This document shows, in pieces, positions 23,855 to 31,511 of a stretch of DNA of 64,000 nucleotides. The translations under genes were made by a program, and so were the position numbers. The stretch is taken from the NCBI RefSeq assembly GCF_026319325.1, contig NZ_JAPDMU010000003.1, positions 1 to 64,000 of the forward strand, given 5' to 3'. The notes beneath the pieces were generated by a model. The model was given only the letters and a program-made list of their open reading frames with translations. It made no database searches and was not told where the DNA came from. Each line of letters starts with the position of its first letter. Position 1 is the first letter of the stretch. This DNA is from Methylophaga sp. OBS3. Its GTDB lineage: Bacteria > Pseudomonadota > Gammaproteobacteria > Nitrosococcales > Methylophagaceae.

Positions 23855-24268
23855 CTAGCTCTTTTGGCAGTTTTTGCAAATGCCGTAGATATACAAACTA
23901 TGATCGGTCATCTCAAAGCCATTTTCTTTAGCGATGACTTTTTGGCGTTGCTCGATCATTTCGTCGTAAAACTCTTCAATTTTATTGCACTTCACGCAAA
24001 ACATATGATCGTGATGGTCACCATCTTCAAGTTCGAATACAGCATGACCACCTTCAATGCTCAGTCGAGATACCAGACCTGCACCTTCGAATTGGGTCAG
24101 TACACGATAAACCGTCGCTAGGCCAATTTCCTCCCCCAGCTCCAGTAATGCTTTATAGACATCTTCGGCGCTCATGTGGCGCTGTGCCGAGTGTTCCATG
24201 ATTTCCAGCACTTTAAGTCGCGGTAGCGTTACTTTTAGGCCGGCTTTTCGTAAATCCTGACTTTCCAT
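23855..24268 (-). CDS. fur: Ferric uptake regulator
   Basis: Iron-sensing repressor. From MESQDLRKAGLK the protein has 137 residues: an N-terminal winged helix (LATVYRVLTQFEGAGL is the recognition region) and a C-terminal dimerisation/metal domain with HDHMFCVKC and ICKNC, the metal-binding Cys pairs. An in-frame start at 24310 would add 14 atypical residues. It is divergent from bamE, a conserved arrangement. Fur boxes at the TonB receptor and two-component system in this window are likely targets. Confidence 0.96.
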   Translation of the reverse strand: MESQDLRKAGLKVTLPRLKVLEIMEHSAQRHMSAEDVYKALLELGEEIGLATVYRVLTQFEGAGLVSRLSIEGGHAVFELEDGDHHDHMFCVKCNKIEEFYDEMIEQRQKVIAKENGFEMTDHSLYIYGICKNCQKS

Positions 24269-24345
24269 TATGTTTGTTGCCTCGTAGAAATTGCGCGAAT
24301 AGAGTATCATCGCATTTTGGTCATCAACACAGATTGAAATACTAA

Positions 24346-24915
24346 ATGAAAAGCCTCGTTATTTATAGCCTTTCGCTAATGATTCTTGTGCTCAGTGGCT
24401 GTAGCAAAGATAAAATCCCTGGCGTTTATCGCATTGATATCCAGCAAGGTAATGAAGTGACGCAAGAAATGCTTGCCAAACTTGAACCAGGCATGACGAA
24501 AAGCCAGGTCAACTTTGTTATGGGTACCCCGCTGATTATTGACACATTCCACCCGAATCGTTGGGATTATCTGTACAGCTACCAACCGGGTAATGGTGAT
24601 CGCCAACAGCGTCGTATCACACTTTACTTTGATAATGAGGAAAAGCTTGATTACATCGATGGTAATACGCGTACTGTCGAAAGAATTGAACTTGCTGAAG
24701 AAGATCGCACCGAAACAAATATCGTTGTTCCTTTAACTGAACGCAAAACCAGCTTTTTCGGTGGCTTGCTGAATATGATTGGTTTTGGTGACGATGAGGC
24801 TGACATTATTGAAGATAACGAGGAAGTTGATCCCGCACTTGAAAAACAGGCAGAATCATTACCAAGTGAATCTGACCCGATGATGGATGATGATATCCCA
24901 CCTGGAACAGAGTAA
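24346..24915 (+). CDS. bamE: Outer membrane assembly lipoprotein BamE (SmpA/OmlA)
   Basis: Accessory lipoprotein of the BAM complex that inserts beta-barrels. The 189-residue protein has a lipobox ending at Cys19 (LSGC) and the SmpA/OmlA fold at about 30-110 ([29 protein letters not shown]). It is longer than the usual ~113-residue BamE because of a C-terminal tail (about 125-189) rich in Asp/Glu and probably unstructured. A strong two-way terminator follows. Confidence 0.94.
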
Positions 24916-24931
24916 AAAATATTGAATAAAA

Positions 24932-24956
24932 AAATGCCGCTTTTCAGCGGCATTTT
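24932..24956. terminator. Bidirectional intrinsic terminator
   Basis: A 10-base-pair stem (AAATGCCGCT with its complement), 4-base loop, T run on the plus strand and A run before it, placed between the convergent bamE and carbonic anhydrase genes. It can terminate in both directions. Confidence 0.9.
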
Positions 24957-24959
24957 TAT

Positions 24960-25592
24960 TTAATCTAGGGTATTTTCAAACTTATCTGTAGTTGGGTTAT
25001 AACTTAATAACTCACCAGCCGTTAGATCAAAATACCATCCATGCAGCGTAATAGAACCACTTTCAACGCGTTCTTTTACAAAATCAAAGCCAAGCAGGTT
25101 TTGCAACGAAACCAATACAGCCCGCTGCTCACACGCTTTTAATTGTACAGCATCACTTTGGTCAGCATGATTAGATTTCACCCACTCCTTAGCTTCTTGA
25201 GCAATCGACACCCAACGATGAATAAATTGTGAGTCATTAAGATCTTCGCTTTCCCAAAGGCCTTTGATACCACCACAGTTGGCATGTCCCATAACGATGA
25301 TGTTTTCAACGCCTAAACCTTTAACCGCAAACTCAATCGCGGAACTCGTACCATGATGATGTTGATCGTTTTCACATGGTGGTACGAGATTAGCGACGTT
25401 ACGCACTGTAAATAAGTCACCTGGATCACAATCAGTCAAAATTGCTGGATCAACACGGGAGTCACAGCAAGCAACCATCAAGGTTTTTGCTGGTTGACCA
25501 GTTTTCATACTGTCGTATAAACCTTGATCATCCCCAAAATAACGCGCTTTGAAACGCTCAAAACCCTCAATTAACACATCTGTTTTTGCCAT
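24960..25592 (-). CDS. Beta-class carbonic anhydrase
   Basis: Zinc enzyme interconverting CO2 and bicarbonate. About 210 residues with the zinc ligands and catalytic dyad in CCDSRVDP (Cys, Asp, Arg) and GHANCGG (His, Cys). The ATG at 25592 is preceded by AAGG at good spacing; an ATG at 25598 overlaps the stop of the upstream hydrolase gene (TAATG). The two genes are coupled. In a methylotroph it could supply bicarbonate for carboxylations, which is inference. Confidence 0.95.
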   Translation of the reverse strand: MAKTDVLIEGFERFKARYFGDDQGLYDSMKTGQPAKTLMVACCDSRVDPAILTDCDPGDLFTVRNVANLVPPCENDQHHHGTSSAIEFAVKGLGVENIIVMGHANCGGIKGLWESEDLNDSQFIHRWVSIAQEAKEWVKSNHADQSDAVQLKACEQRAVLVSLQNLLGFDFVKERVESGSITLHGWYFDLTAGELLSYNPTTDKFENTLD

Positions 25593-25597
25593 TGTCA

Positions 25598-26233
25598 TTA
25601 CCTTAAAAAATGCAGATAGGGATTCGTTTCTAATTCTTTTGAAAGTGTTGTTACAGGACCATGACCACTATGAACACGTAAATGACCGGGTAATGTCATT
25701 AGCTTTTTCAAGCTCTCTTGTGTCACTGCCGCATCTCCCATCGGCAAGTCATAACGGCCGATACTGCCAGCAAACAATGTGTCGCCGACAAAAATATCTT
25801 GGTCATCATAATAACAACCCTGCCCTGGCGTATGCCCTGGGGTCGAAATAAATTTTAGTTCAGTCTCGCCCAGTTGAACAATATCCCCATCATCTAAAAA
25901 ATGATCAATGCGACCACAAGGCCGATTAAATGCTGGCTCTCCAAACCAATCACCTTGTTTAGGCAAAGTCGCAAATAAAGGTTGTTCAAGTTTAGGTAGA
26001 TAGGTCGGCACATCAAAATGCTCTTGTAGCATTGTTAGTGCCCCCGCATGGTCTAAATGCCCATGGGTCAGCAAAATCATTTTGATATCAGGGATAGGAC
26101 GTAAAGCGATTAACTGACGCATTAACTCATCAGATTCGCCAGTATCAATAATGGCAGATTGATTAGTGCTTGGGTCAGTTACGAGATAGGTGTTAACGCG
26201 AAAGGCGCCGACGGTAAAACATTGTACCTGCAT
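25598..26233 (-). CDS. Metallo-beta-lactamase-fold hydrolase (glyoxalase II-like)
   Basis: A 211-residue single-domain MBL-fold protein with metal motif LTHGHLDHAG (about residues 55-65), a later His in TPGHTPGQGC, Asp in FVGDTLF and terminal His in HSGHGP. It resembles the YcbL-type small glyoxalase II-like thioester hydrolases; the true substrate is unknown. It is followed with one base of overlap by the carbonic anhydrase. Confidence 0.88.
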   Translation of the reverse strand: MQVQCFTVGAFRVNTYLVTDPSTNQSAIIDTGESDELMRQLIALRPIPDIKMILLTHGHLDHAGALTMLQEHFDVPTYLPKLEQPLFATLPKQGDWFGEPAFNRPCGRIDHFLDDGDIVQLGETELKFISTPGHTPGQGCYYDDQDIFVGDTLFAGSIGRYDLPMGDAAVTQESLKKLMTLPGHLRVHSGHGPVTTLSKELETNPYLHFLR

Positions 26234-26291
26234 TATTTACTCTTCAATGTTTACCGCCAGCACCCCAATTAAACGCTAAAAGACTCTATCT

Positions 26292-27530
26292 CTAGTCTTG
26301 GTTATCCCACTTACTCCGGCTTTCACGAGCAACGCGCATATTATTTTCAAACCATTTACGTTTGACGCTCTGCGTGCGAGCCAAGTTAAGGTTAGCTTCG
26401 TACCATTTTTTCTTCAGATCGGCATGAGGATCTGGGTGCAGATTTGCTTCATACCATTTCTGATGACTGATTCGAGCTTGGTAGAGGTTAGCTTCGTACC
26501 ATTTACGTTTCGCAGCTGTTTTCTCATCACTAAACTCATACCAGTGTTTATCGGTAGGTTTATCGTCCAGATTCGCTTCATACCATTTACGCGTTTGACT
26601 GCGAACTTTTTCGATGTTTTCTGCTTGGAAACGTTTTTTCCAATCAGTATCACCTGCTTCTTTAAACTCGTACCAGTGATGGCTTGTTGGCGTGTTATCT
26701 AAATTCGCCTCATACCATTTGCTGCGTGTCGCACGGACACTATCAAGTGCTGAACGAAGGTTTGCTTCGTACCACTTTTTCTTAGTATCTAAGTGCTGAA
26801 CGAGGTTTGCTTCGTACCATGGAGTTTCAACCGGTGCAGTTGGGCGCAAGTTGGCTTCGTACCATTTGCCTTTTTCACGAGCAATTTTCGTATTGTAGGC
26901 AAACCAATCCCGCTCAACCTGACGCATACGTGTCAGAGACAAATTCGCTTCATACCATTTTAGTTTGATATCAGCGTGAGGGTTTGGGTGTAGGTTAGCT
27001 TCATACCATTTTTGATGGCTCATGCGAGCTTGTGACAAGTTTGCTTCGTACCATTTACGTTTAGCGGCAGATTTTTCATCACTAAACTCATACCAATGTT
27101 TATTGGTTGGTGTTGAATCAAGGTTTGCTTCATACCACTTAGCACGGTTTTCCCGAGCTTGGCGTAAGCTCTCTAACTGCCACATACGTTTGGCGTCAGT
27201 ATGTCCCTTTTCACGATAGTCAAACCAATGTGATTTAACTGGTGAGCTAACGAGATTAGCTTCGTACCATTTACGCGTTGCACGGACACTTTCGACCGCA
27301 TTACGAAGGTTAGCTTCATACCATTTTTTCTTAGTATCTAAATGCTTAACCATATTAGCTCTGTACCAAGGCGTACCTTGATGCTGAGTTTTCTGGCTAT
27401 TCGCTTTATACCAAGGGACTTTTTTCATATTCTCTCGCATTGCATTCGCCTTCTGCCACGTGTCACGGATGCTGCTTGTCTCTTGATTGTTAGCGTACCA
27501 CTTTGATTTGATATCTATTGTGCTACTCAT
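26292..27530 (-). CDS. KWYEANL tandem-repeat protein
   Basis: A 412-residue protein built almost wholly from 26 units of 14-19 residues, each starting with an aromatic pair: consensus K-W-Y-E-A-N-L then a variable, charged 7-12-residue spacer ending in K or R. Exact KWYEANL occurs 13 times and PWYEANL once; variants include HWYEF, DWFAYN and RFQAEN. No signal peptide, membrane helix or known catalytic motif is seen. Residues 53-235 and 236-406 are a unit-by-unit duplication. Synonymous codons differ between copies, pointing to selection on the protein. GGAGAGG lies before the ATG. I do not recognise the family. Possible roles are a helical binding scaffold, a nucleic-acid or metal binder, or a multi-core peptide precursor; none is shown. 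Confidence 0.88.
   Translation of the reverse strand: MSSTIDIKSKWYANNQETSSIRDTWQKANAMRENMKKVPWYKANSQKTQHQGTPWYRANMVKHLDTKKKWYEANLRNAVESVRATRKWYEANLVSSPVKSHWFDYREKGHTDAKRMWQLESLRQARENRAKWYEANLDSTPTNKHWYEFSDEKSAAKRKWYEANLSQARMSHQKWYEANLHPNPHADIKLKWYEANLSLTRMRQVERDWFAYNTKIAREKGKWYEANLRPTAPVETPWYEANLVQHLDTKKKWYEANLRSALDSVRATRSKWYEANLDNTPTSHHWYEFKEAGDTDWKKRFQAENIEKVRSQTRKWYEANLDDKPTDKHWYEFSDEKTAAKRKWYEANLYQARISHQKWYEANLHPDPHADLKKKWYEANLNLARTQSVKRKWFENNMRVARESRSKWDNQD
26313..26825 (-). repeat. Second super-repeat of the KWYEANL gene
   Basis: Encodes residues 236-406 (units from TPWYEANL to KWFENNM). It aligns unit for unit with residues 53-235, including spacers such as HLDTKK, SVRATR, HWYEFSDEK and HADxK. 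DNA blocks are also alike at an offset of about 550 bases (for example around 26770 and 27320), so this is a segmental duplication inside an older array. Confidence 0.8.
26826..27374 (-). repeat. First super-repeat of the KWYEANL gene
   Basis: Encodes residues 53-235 (units from TPWYRAN to KWYEANLRPTAPVE). It holds one more unit than the second copy, at the junction. Four diverged N-terminal units (KWYANN, TWQKAN, PWYKAN and lead-in) precede it. Confidence 0.8.
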
Positions 27531-27565
27531 AACGATTACCTCTCCGGGTAGTTTTTTTCAATTTG

Positions 27566-27595
27566 ATAGTACCCTAGATTGAATCCATATAACAA
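27566..27595 (-). promoter_or_regulatory. Probable promoter of the KWYEANL gene
   Basis: The minus strand shows TTGTTA (27590-27595), an 18-base spacer and TACTAT (27566-27571), about 35 bases before the start codon. It suggests the repeat gene can be transcribed independently of the upstream exported-protein gene. Match to consensus is moderate. Confidence 0.45.
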
Positions 27596-27628
27596 GAAAA
27601 AGACATGGAATAAGTCCGTTATTGTCAC

Positions 27629-28036
27629 CTATTCAAAACATAGCTGTTGGGCCTTAAGACGTTGAAGCATGGCAATTTGCTGCTCTACATTTTGCATTCT
27701 TCGTGACTCTTTTTCTTCAACCAAAGATGAATAAGCTAAATAGCCAATGCCAAGCCATCCTTCCACAATTGGAATGCTATCAACTGCAATTAATGTCGTT
27801 GCTACTTTGTTGGTATTGTCATGATAGAAATTGGGTTTGTAGCTATACCGATAGGGATGCAATGCATTAATCGCACTATCTAATTCATAACAATCATACT
27901 GACGCTGATTATCTGATGGTTTAGCGATAGGTGGCTCGAAGTAAATTGGCTCTGTAGGCACTGGCGGTAACGTCATTGCCTGTACCGATGCATAAAGACT
28001 GGCGACCGTTATTGCAAACCAAAACAGTTTTCTCAT
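27629..28036 (-). CDS. Small exported protein of unknown function
   Basis: A 135-residue protein with a typical Sec signal peptide (MRKLF... to about residue 20, ASVQA), then a Pro-rich segment (PPVPTEP, PPIAKP), two Cys (49 and 133) that could form a disulfide, and a C-terminal probable coiled coil (about 107-132). The ATG at 28036 has GGAG six bases upstream; a TTG further up is not needed. It lies 98 bases upstream of the KWYEANL gene on the same strand. I recognise no family. Confidence 0.7.
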   Translation of the reverse strand: MRKLFWFAITVASLYASVQAMTLPPVPTEPIYFEPPIAKPSDNQRQYDCYELDSAINALHPYRYSYKPNFYHDNTNKVATTLIAVDSIPIVEGWLGIGYLAYSSLVEEKESRRMQNVEQQIAMLQRLKAQQLCFE

Positions 28037-28258
28037 CTTAAGCTCCAATAATCCTCATAACCTTATTAGCGGCTTTATTTAGTAAATATTTAAGTGAATT
28101 TTCTTACCTATATCCTAAAGTAACTAACCAAACAATCGCAGCTAAATCATCTAATGCATAGCTAATATTGAACCAATTGAATCATTATCTAGACGCAATA
28201 CATCGAATTAGCATAGGCTTAACTAAAAAGCTTAATAACCTTCTTGCAGGAGGCCTCG

Positions 28259-28564
28259 ATGGCTGGCAGGGAACATGAAGAAAAGCGACAATTTCAACGA
28301 ATGCAGTTGGAAAGTCAGTTACAGTTTCGCCGCGAGGGTGGAACAACGCTATATAAAGCAAAAACATTAGATCTTAGCGCCAGTGGTGTCAGGTTCACGA
28401 CAACAGAGTCACTATTGTCTGATGAACTTTTGCAGATTGTCATACACAGTCAACACCCGCAAATATCGCCATTAGTTGCTGAAGGTAAAGTGAAGCGTGT
28501 TGAGGCAGCATCAGAGGAAGAACAACACTTTACCGTATCGGTCGTTTTTTCTAATCTAAGTTAA
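28259..28564 (+). CDS. PilZ-domain protein
   Basis: A 101-residue single PilZ domain, by family a cyclic-di-GMP receptor. The binding motifs are visible: the Arg-rich KRQFQR near residue 10 and DLSASGVRF (D-x-S-x-x-G) about 30 residues later. The ATG at 28259 follows a strong AGGAGG site; an upstream TTG is unlikely. Divergent from the exported-protein gene and convergent with coq7. A GGDEF protein lies close by, so a local c-di-GMP theme is possible. Confidence 0.88.
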   Translation: MAGREHEEKRQFQRMQLESQLQFRREGGTTLYKAKTLDLSASGVRFTTTESLLSDELLQIVIHSQHPQISPLVAEGKVKRVEAASEEEQHFTVSVVFSNLS

Positions 28565-28567
28565 GTT

Positions 28568-29209
28568 TTACAGCCAGTAACTGCTGCGGGTCATCACCTT
28601 AGAGACGACAGTCATCAATTTTTGTACAGGCAAAGGTAATTCCGCACCACCGGCATTTACCGCCTGTTCCCCATGATGTATCTCATCAACCTGCATTTGT
28701 TTTAAAACCGCACGACTTGCCTTGTCACTGTCATCTAATTGGTCAAGATGATCTGCTAAATGGGCCTCAACTTGTTTCTCGGTTTCGGCGACAAATCCAA
28801 GACTCCATTTATCACCTGCTTTACCGGCAACCGCACCAAGAGCAAATGAGCCGACATACCAAAGTGGATTTAAAACACTTCGATGACCATCTAATGCAGT
28901 CAAGCGTTGTTGACACCAAACTAAATGATCATTTTCTTCCATTGCCGCTTGTTGCATGGTTTCACGCACTTCAGGCAACTTAGCGGTTAACGCTTGGCCT
29001 TGATATAAAGCTTGCGCAGACACCTCACCCGCATGATTAATACGCATCAATGCCGCATGATGACGACGTTGTTTATCAGTAAGCTCCGCTTCCGGTATTT
29101 TCAATGCCGGATTTTTGCGCCCACTGCCTTTTGGGTTTCCCCAGATTGTTGTTAACGCCTTGTCGAATGCCAAAATCACGGCATCCTGAAAGTCAGTCTG
29201 TCTTTGCAT
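28568..29209 (-). CDS. coq7: Demethoxyubiquinone hydroxylase
   Basis: Di-iron monooxygenase of ubiquinone synthesis. The 213-residue protein has the carboxylate/His ligands of the family: RINHAGEVSAQ, EENDHLVWC and DEIHHGEQA. The ATG at 29209 lies just after the stop of the upstream GGDEF gene (a TTG at 29215 is the alternative), so it is probably translationally coupled to a diguanylate cyclase, an odd partner. Confidence 0.95.
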   Translation of the reverse strand: MQRQTDFQDAVILAFDKALTTIWGNPKGSGRKNPALKIPEAELTDKQRRHHAALMRINHAGEVSAQALYQGQALTAKLPEVRETMQQAAMEENDHLVWCQQRLTALDGHRSVLNPLWYVGSFALGAVAGKAGDKWSLGFVAETEKQVEAHLADHLDQLDDSDKASRAVLKQMQVDEIHHGEQAVNAGGAELPLPVQKLMTVVSKVMTRSSYWL

Positions 29210-29211
29210 AG

Positions 29212-30255
29212 TCAAAATAATTCAACATCGTTGTCATGGGCGGATGAGCGCGATTCGGTAATTTTACCCTCAGATACAAGGCTATGATAACTGTGTACCT
29301 GGTTACGACCATTTTGTTTAGCGTAATACAAGGCATTATCAGCCTGACCGATAACATCCGCAGTCGAGGATTGCAGCGCCACTTCAACAAAGCCAATGCT
29401 AATCGTAATTTGATCCAGCTGAGGGAATGTTTGGTTAGCCACAATTAACCTAAGTCGCTCAAAAGCCATAAATGCATCCGCTTCACCGGCCGATTTAAGA
29501 AGAACAACAAACTCTTCTCCCCCAAAACGAAACACCAGATCATTATCTCGCAACACACCAGAGGTCATAAGTCTTGAGACGAGAATGATCACTTCATCCC
29601 CATATAAATGACCATAGTTATCATTTATTTGCTTAAAGTAATCGATATCAATGATGCCTAGCCAGTCTTTGGTAGCAGCATGACGCCGCGAGTCCTGAGG
29701 CTCAACGCTTTTATCCAAAAAGTTATTACGCTGATTATTAAGTACTTGCGAAATTTGTTGATCCAGCGTCTCTCTATTAAAGAGACTGGTCAATTTATCG
29801 CGTTGGGTTTTATTAATCAGCCCGAGGTAATTAGCATAGACCTTCAATAACCCAGAAACGAGCCTTTGGTCACTATCAGACAACTTTTCGTGGAAACGGT
29901 GTAACAAAATCGCCAAAATCCCCCCTTGACTGTCAAGCGCAGGAATAATGGTAAAAAATTCACCTTGTTTATCGCAGTATTGCTTAATTTCACGGTCGTC
30001 AATTGCTGATCTAATGAGCGATTTCAACTCAGGCGACTCATTATCAAACTTACTGTGGGCCTTTGCTGGGGCAACCAAGTCCTTGGCTTCTTGGCTTTTC
30101 TCAAGCCTATTCACCTGCAGAATATCCAGACTATGAGCCGGAAACAGTTCGTTAAGCGTTTTAAGCAGACTTTCTTCTAATACATCACGATCTTGATGGC
30201 CGGTAAATTCGGCCAGATTATCGATTATTTGATTACTGTTATGAAGGTGCTGCAT
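29212..30255 (-). CDS. Diguanylate cyclase (GGDEF)
   Basis: A 347-residue protein with an N-terminal GAF-like sensory region (about 1-160) and a C-terminal GGDEF domain. The active-site motif reads FRFGGEEFVVLL (GGEEF is a functional variant), with IDIDYFKQINDNYGHLYGD upstream for metal and guanine binding. No membrane helix is seen. It should make c-di-GMP in the cytosol. It ends just before coq7. Confidence 0.92.
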   Translation of the reverse strand: MQHLHNSNQIIDNLAEFTGHQDRDVLEESLLKTLNELFPAHSLDILQVNRLEKSQEAKDLVAPAKAHSKFDNESPELKSLIRSAIDDREIKQYCDKQGEFFTIIPALDSQGGILAILLHRFHEKLSDSDQRLVSGLLKVYANYLGLINKTQRDKLTSLFNRETLDQQISQVLNNQRNNFLDKSVEPQDSRRHAATKDWLGIIDIDYFKQINDNYGHLYGDEVIILVSRLMTSGVLRDNDLVFRFGGEEFVVLLKSAGEADAFMAFERLRLIVANQTFPQLDQITISIGFVEVALQSSTADVIGQADNALYYAKQNGRNQVHSYHSLVSEGKITESRSSAHDNDVELF

Positions 30256-31304: not shown

Positions 31305-31511
31305 GGCAGTTCTCTTACGCTAGTAGTTATTGGCGTGCTTCCGTTAATCCATTTAACGGCAAAAATAAGCAGAACTTGAGTGCAAGACTGCCTTAAGACC
31401 AAGATAGCGCAAGGCTATCGTCTCAGCAAGCAATATTCTTAGAGAAAACTACACCCTGAAATCCCAAAGCAGTTAGAATGGGTCGGGTATTAAAGAAGAA
31501 ATAATTCGGAA

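Follow-up and report, generated by a model that had tools for sequence, protein, structure and literature searches.

What does a bacterium gain from a protein built almost entirely of one short aromatic motif, repeated some two dozen times in a single chain? The question is raised by a gene within the 64,000-nucleotide stretch of Methylophaga sp. OBS3 DNA analysed here (the window), which a sequence-only reading had located at positions 26292–27530 and credited with 412 residues. Both the position and the length stand, and the strand is the minus strand: from an ATG start the frame runs through 412 codons to a stop, and the plus-strand frame that shares the start of 26292–27530 is, on translation, interrupted by stops. 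The product, the WYEAN-repeat protein, comprises 26 units of 14–19 residues, as first counted, provided that three degenerate units are included, and the longer gaps between motifs are spans over such units; KWYEANL occurs exactly 13 times. The aromatic pair said to open every unit is WY or WF in 23 of the 26 and is replaced by WQ, WQ and FQ in the remaining three, and the description of the spacers as ending in K or R holds only in part, the residue before the 23 W[YF] pairs being K in 15 cases, H in 4, P in 3 and D in 1. The chain has a pI of 9.7, no cysteine and 1% glycine, and by eye neither it nor its relatives show a hydrophobic N-terminus or signal peptide.

Tandem Repeats Finder (score 50) reports no tandem array in the window, which indicates that the WYEAN repeat is old at the DNA level. 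The two halves of the gene nonetheless match at 71.5% across 439 aligned bases (aligned cores of the first copy at 26944–27374 and of the second at 26392–26825, both on the minus strand, converted from gene to window coordinates), so the array includes an old super-repeat duplication of about a dozen units. Synonymous codons do vary among the 13 exact KWYEANL copies, with four codons used for Ala, six for Leu and two each for Tyr and Asn. When the window gene is compared with five relatives, pN is 0.057–0.126 in motif codons versus 0.244–0.365 in spacers, roughly three to four times lower, and synonymous differences are saturated by a simple count; the selection on the peptide proposed from the codon variation is thereby borne out. 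Outside the gene, the genome shows no excess of a W-[YF]-x3-[AS]-N DNA pattern (30 matches versus 35 for a reversed control), and the gene, giving a single match in its own genome, is apparently single-copy.

The gene is present in 53 of 57 Methylophagaceae genomes and in none of six other genomes of the order. It is missing from G003 (1.1 Mb, 100% complete), G056 (97%), G030 (84%) and G044 (85%), and for the last two assembly gaps may account for the absence. A pattern scan of a collection of genome contigs yielded 35 stretches, 30 of them encoding a relative, with M. aminisulfidivorans and M. sulfidovorans among the carriers; this collection overlaps with the genome collection, and the two counts are not independent. 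Beyond the family, a profile search of 369 genomes of the class returned four matches, all within the family, and thus none among the other 365, and a phylum sample of 398 genomes, some of which also belong to the class set, returned only the own genome and G438, with no credible match in the 397 others; G438 was rejected as a relative, its protein being of the pentapeptide type and lacking W-Y. No relatives were found in viral contigs, plasmids or phages. Searches of Pfam, NCBIfam, PHROG and PDB sequences gave nothing that passed the cut-off or had a convincing E-value, in keeping with the initial failure to recognize a family, and the confident hit to a characterized repeat family that might have overturned that judgement was looked for and not found. 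Scores against the pentapeptide-repeat family PF00805 (16.3 bits versus a Pfam cut-off of 20.2) and NCBIfam HetL (16.5 bits versus a cut-off of 260) are sub-threshold, and pentapeptide repeats have a period of 5; with a period of 14–19 here, we reject membership. An RNA element was rejected as well, since no Rfam match reached the gathering score within 24000–29500. A literature search found no description of a WYEAN-repeat family and no text with KWYEANL, and the letter matches listed for WYEAN or KWYEA were unrelated titles.

A promoter-like element, CTTG-N20-GTACTATC, lies upstream of the gene (27565–27596, minus strand); its hexamers TTGTTA and TACTAT are separated by an 18-bp spacer and agree with the sigma-70 consensus at 8 of 12 positions. 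The ribosome-binding site GAGAGGTAA (GAGAGG; 27536–27544, minus strand) is kept in relatives. Across an alignment of 20 of the 31 upstream regions, a common TTG is followed some 20 bases on by an invariant GTAnTATC, and L017, L027 and L030, which fall outside the alignment, carry variants of the element. The strict pattern matches once in the window against 0.14 expected, and it is present at 36 of the 63 loci collected, a set in which many entries overlap or do not contain the upstream region of the repeat gene. The conserved element is not among the matches of a sigma-70 consensus scan, which needs 9 of 12 positions and gave two sites against 8.5 expected by shuffling. Upstream columns that are at least 90% conserved number 19 for the repeat gene (ATG included), 20 for ndk and 3–12 for the neighbouring gene UP (described below), carbonic anhydrase, nadK, coq7, cheV and rnr (20 loci, 13–20 usable per gene; the metallo-β-lactamase (MBL)-fold hydrolase gene, with only 10, was left unaligned). 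Because ndk is similar, the conservation before the repeat gene is strong and not unique. The 61 columns of bamE and 54 of fur are not comparable, since their shared divergent region runs into each other's genes; these and other neighbour names beyond the Pfam matches are ones that we take from the encoded proteins.

Codon adaptation of the repeat gene (0.728) ranks sixth among 55 window ORFs picked by a mechanical rule, whose median is 0.658, and second of 17 in a relative's own locus. The reference for this measure was 19 ORFs of a relative's ribosomal region, since a search of the own genome, which is incomplete, did not turn up ribosomal L2. By this codon measure the repeat protein is probably well expressed. 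Together, the occurrence in 53 of 57 family genomes, the upstream element, the codon adaptation and the constraint on motif codons establish that the gene is real.

Statistics over 507 units from 24 of 31 proteins (seven were dropped as fragments or near-duplicates, and L028 was kept despite some unread bases) define the unit more closely. After W comes Y (94%) or F (6%), then E in 79%, A in 83% and N in 87%, with L, M or I next in 63%; conservation covers the Ala at +3 and the Asn at +4 and often extends to an Ala at +8. Immediately before W stands K in 62%, P in 18%, H in 13% and R in 3%, that is, K or R in 65% and P or H in 31%. Motif gaps of 14 (62), 15 (199), 17 (131) and 19 residues (33) make up 425 of 483, and gaps of 29, 30 and 44 span degenerate units. 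Distinct unit types recur, namely PWYEANMxxHLDTKK, KWYEANLxxAVxSVRATR (18–19 residues), KWYEANLDxTPTEK (14), xWYEANxxxDPHADxKK (17) and KWYEANLxxARxx, with the Pro-containing stretches TPT and DPHAD at regular places. In nine proteins with 23 units, the spacers alone were compared between species: of 828 comparisons, 474 gave the best match at the same index, where 36 would be expected by chance, and a further 249 gave it at about the equivalent slot of the other half. The sequence-only reading had raised variable copy number among homologues, and complete copies do range from 11 W[YF] units in 202 residues (L030) to 27 in 427 (L020), in a short version of 11–17 units and a long one of 21–27. 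Taken with the spacer-position test, these counts show that unit order and spacing are kept and that long and short versions differ by roughly a whole super-repeat; the strings of unit types suggest that the shortest relatives carry one super-repeat and Methylophaga two. In Methylophaga muralis the repeat gene (L013, 8001–9237) is broken into two frames, through either a mutation or a fault of assembly.

This fixed order weighs heavily on one of the two functions originally put forward, a polyprotein that would be cleaved at basic residues to release many small peptides of similar sequence. Although the lysine before 62% of Trp would suit such cleavage, P or H occupies that place in 31%, the unit types differ and hold their order and position between species, the signal peptide is lacking by eye, and no peptidase is recognized among the seven window neighbours scanned; in two relatives scanned a Lon-like protease gene stands near the repeat gene. 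Because distinct unit types stand in a fixed order, we disfavour a precursor and find it scarcely credible.

The other function first proposed was a repeated binding surface, for instance a helical solenoid. Structure prediction, run as the check then suggested, gave no known fold with AlphaFold2 and Foldseek. For the window protein (13 sequences) the mean pLDDT is 47.4 and the pTM 0.15; for the 234-residue relative L027 (22 sequences) they are 63.0 and 0.20, the alignments being shallow in both cases. Where ordered, both models are all-helical, with no packing and no residue at a pLDDT of at least 90, and the L027 model has no Foldseek match in the PDB. That low-confidence model places helices of 20–43 residues at 6–30, 55–93, 110–137, 157–176 and 191–233, with weaker stretches between, so that its five long helices start 34–55 residues apart. 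In a folded solenoid, each unit would contribute a short helix, and its W, Y, A, N and L would pack against the adjoining units to form one extended binding surface, as the all-helical models, the conserved A at +3, N at +4 and frequent A at +8, and the regular placement of TPT and DPHAD might suggest. Against this stand the pTM values, the spacing of 14–19 residues without a constant period, and a hydrophobic moment little or not above that of shuffled sequences (z from −0.4 to 2.0 in five proteins); nor does the protein match a TPR, HAT or PPR-like profile in Pfam. Since AlphaFold2, on these shallow alignments, gives helices without packing, the solenoid is unsupported, and we consider it rather unlikely. 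The same hydrophobic moments led us to reject a membrane-binding amphipathic helix.

What the models depict resembles a chain of helices that form conditionally more than it does a packed domain. By the charge–hydropathy boundary formula the protein falls on the disordered side (0.348 versus a boundary of 0.433), and from this one crude index and the low model confidence we infer intrinsic disorder.

Composition speaks to two further possibilities. A nucleic-acid-binding or nucleoid-associated protein, in which K and R would touch phosphate while W and Y stack or intercalate, accords with a pI of 8.8–10.0 in all 31 proteins measured, fragments included, and with the even spread of K, R, W and Y; yet the window protein carries a net charge of only +0.056 per residue, the motif Glu is 79% conserved, and the searches revealed no similarity to any nucleic-acid-binding family, which makes this role quite unlikely. 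Protection of the LEA or hydrophilin type, keeping proteins soluble in salt or drying, could be imagined for a hydrophilic, repeated, cysteine-free and glycine-poor protein from a family that includes marine organisms. A Trp content of 6.6% and a Tyr content of 5.6%, at fixed places, are however unlike LEA proteins, and the motif is more conserved than the spacers, which argues for specific contacts; we regard stress protection of this kind as highly improbable.

The explanation that we prefer, and hold tentatively, is that the repeat protein is an intrinsically flexible, basic and multivalent linker of the sticker-and-spacer kind. Each W-[YF]-E-A-N unit would act as a short sticker, with charged spacers, constrained in length, setting the stickers 14–19 residues from one another, and stretches of two or three units would probably turn helical on binding. 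Many weak contacts would then engage a repeated or oligomeric partner, the repeat protein itself, or both, and would cross-link the linker into a cytoplasmic cluster or condensate. The flexibility, cytoplasmic location, helix formation on binding and cross-linking are what we infer. The repeated binding surface of the sequence-only reading is supported in this form as the most economical account.

Proteins of this general design are known from pyrenoids. As described in PMC10288592, the diatom Rubisco linker PYCO1 has a pI of 10.03, is mostly disordered and is built of tandem repeats with KWSP stickers; the sticker is helical when bound to Rubisco, mutation of its W impairs condensation, and PYCO1 oligomerizes and condenses an enzyme. 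PYCO1 and the WYEAN-repeat protein are alike as basic tandem-repeat chains with a recurring Lys-Trp motif, the putative sticker in the latter. They are set apart by the motif itself, by the Rubisco partner of PYCO1, and by density, PYCO1 having six stickers in repeats of about 80 residues as against 11–27 stickers placed every 14–19. EPYC1 of Chlamydomonas is, according to PMC10288592 and PMC11570498, a disordered repeat protein with evenly spaced helical stickers that is unconserved beyond close relatives, and searches for pyrenoid linkers use a repeat spacing of 20–120 residues (PMC11570498). EPYC1 shares a narrow distribution, and would share sticker repeats, with the WYEAN-repeat protein and, unlike it, has five stickers and is Rubisco-specific and eukaryotic; the WYEAN spacing of 14–19 residues is also denser than the range searched for pyrenoid linkers. 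The 34–55 residues between helix starts in the low-confidence L027 model lie inside that range. Our best reading is that the repeat protein works like PYCO1 and EPYC1, by analogy, and is not a member of their kind. Among bacteria, the alpha-carboxysome scaffold CsoS2 is alike as a disordered multi-repeat scaffold and differs in belonging to carboxysome gene sets; the CsoS2 family is not among the Pfam and NCBIfam matches of the repeat protein.

If the protein is a linker, its partner might be sought among its neighbours. Directly upstream lies UP (27629–28036, minus strand), a small protein that, judged by eye, seems to carry a signal peptide; it has no match in Pfam or NCBIfam and has weak relatives in 11 non-family genomes of the class. 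UP accompanies the repeat gene in 51 of 53 genomes and is absent from all four of the 57 that lack it. It is preceded by a FliA (sigma-28)-like promoter (28066–28092, minus strand) that agrees with what we take to be the FliA consensus at 13 of 16 positions in the window and at up to 15 in relatives (for example L050 at 9763, minus strand; L028 at 7417; L005 at 7433). Scored against this assumed consensus, with seven redundant or gapped loci left out and two genomes doubled (L022 with L052, L030 with L047), sites of at least 13 positions precede UP in 17 of 25 loci (16 of 24 when L022 and L052, one genome, are merged) versus 0.4% of 3000 random stretches. UP is therefore a candidate motility-regulon gene, as judged from this promoter-like sequence, and uncharacterized.

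These sites, the co-occurrence with UP, and nearby cheV, GGDEF and PilZ genes would fit a motility-linked repeat protein, expressed in the flagellar regulon with UP and either acting at the flagellum or cell pole or taking part in c-di-GMP control. The repeat gene, however, has its own upstream element and no FliA-like site in any of 21 loci, read-through from UP being possible; cheV reaches the same score in only 2 of 18 loci, the window (31353–31379, minus strand) and L044; and G027, 99% complete, keeps the repeat gene without UP and without cheV at that place, which also disqualifies UP as an obligate partner. We judge a motility role improbable.

The surroundings of UP vary among relatives. 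A response regulator and a sensor kinase of 704–711 residues, absent in the window, lie directly upstream of UP in L022 (4590–7460) and L050 (9732–12554), and L014 and L049 have ORFs of comparable size; L022 and L028 carry an OmpA-family gene on the other strand. In some relatives, such as L002 (4943–7333) and L022 (1258–3657), a Lon-like (LonB/LonC) protease gene lies between pilZ and UP. In G022 (L048, 5090–5927) cheV is in three pieces while UP and the repeat gene are open, perhaps reflecting early chemotaxis loss or an assembly error.

Downstream of the repeat gene follow an MBL-fold hydrolase (25598–26233, minus strand), which some members of the family have at this place, and then a beta-carbonic anhydrase recognized by Pfam (24960–25598, minus strand), past which the genes, bamE and fur (as we assign them) included, keep the same order in relatives. 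Constancy of neighbours was another point raised by the sequence-only reading. Of 30 loci, some of them truncated, 15 have the hydrolase near the repeat gene. Carbonic anhydrase is attractive as a partner because it is adjacent. At ortholog level it occurs in 45 of 53 genomes with the repeat gene and in 2 of 4 without (a 36%-identity match in G023 set aside). The two without are G003 and G056; conversely, the search did not find it in G007, G022 and G023, which are 90–99% complete and have the repeat gene, and the loci of G007 and G022 show the carbonic anhydrase gap. In G003, coq7 and carbonic anhydrase are separated by a stretch of about 350 bp that contains neither UP nor the repeat gene. 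Rubisco, the target of the pyrenoid linkers, fares no better: PF00016, a large-subunit model that also finds Rubisco-like proteins, matches in 29 of 57 genomes of this methylotroph family, in two score classes (E about 1e-137 to 1e-141 and 1e-120 to 1e-126, partial G001 matches aside). G003 and G056, both without the repeat gene, have a match, and none was found in the window genome (94.7% complete) or in G034, G036, G037, G052, G053 and G054 (99–100% complete, repeat present). Because near-complete genomes have the repeat gene without Rubisco, Rubisco is not a general partner, and since carbonic anhydrase, the MBL hydrolase, UP and Rubisco each fail co-occurrence, none of them is an obligate one.

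A more specific version of the linker reading, possible but doubtful, is that some two dozen stickers gather a central C1-metabolism enzyme or another abundant oligomeric enzyme into a condensate or lattice distinct from a carboxysome and not based on Rubisco. The titles listed by our literature search include no bacterial condensate organized by a non-Rubisco linker of this sort. The design is of a known kind; what is novel is the motif, its density, the bacterial family in which it occurs and the missing Rubisco.

Nearly a whole bacterial family thus keeps a gene that lies outside every profile library used. Its near-family-wide presence, apparent single copy, conserved upstream element and constrained spacing imply that it should matter to the cell. 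If the linker reading is true, the WYEAN-repeat protein would be a bacterial parallel to the pyrenoid linkers without Rubisco, and its natural short and long versions would offer a direct handle on valency.
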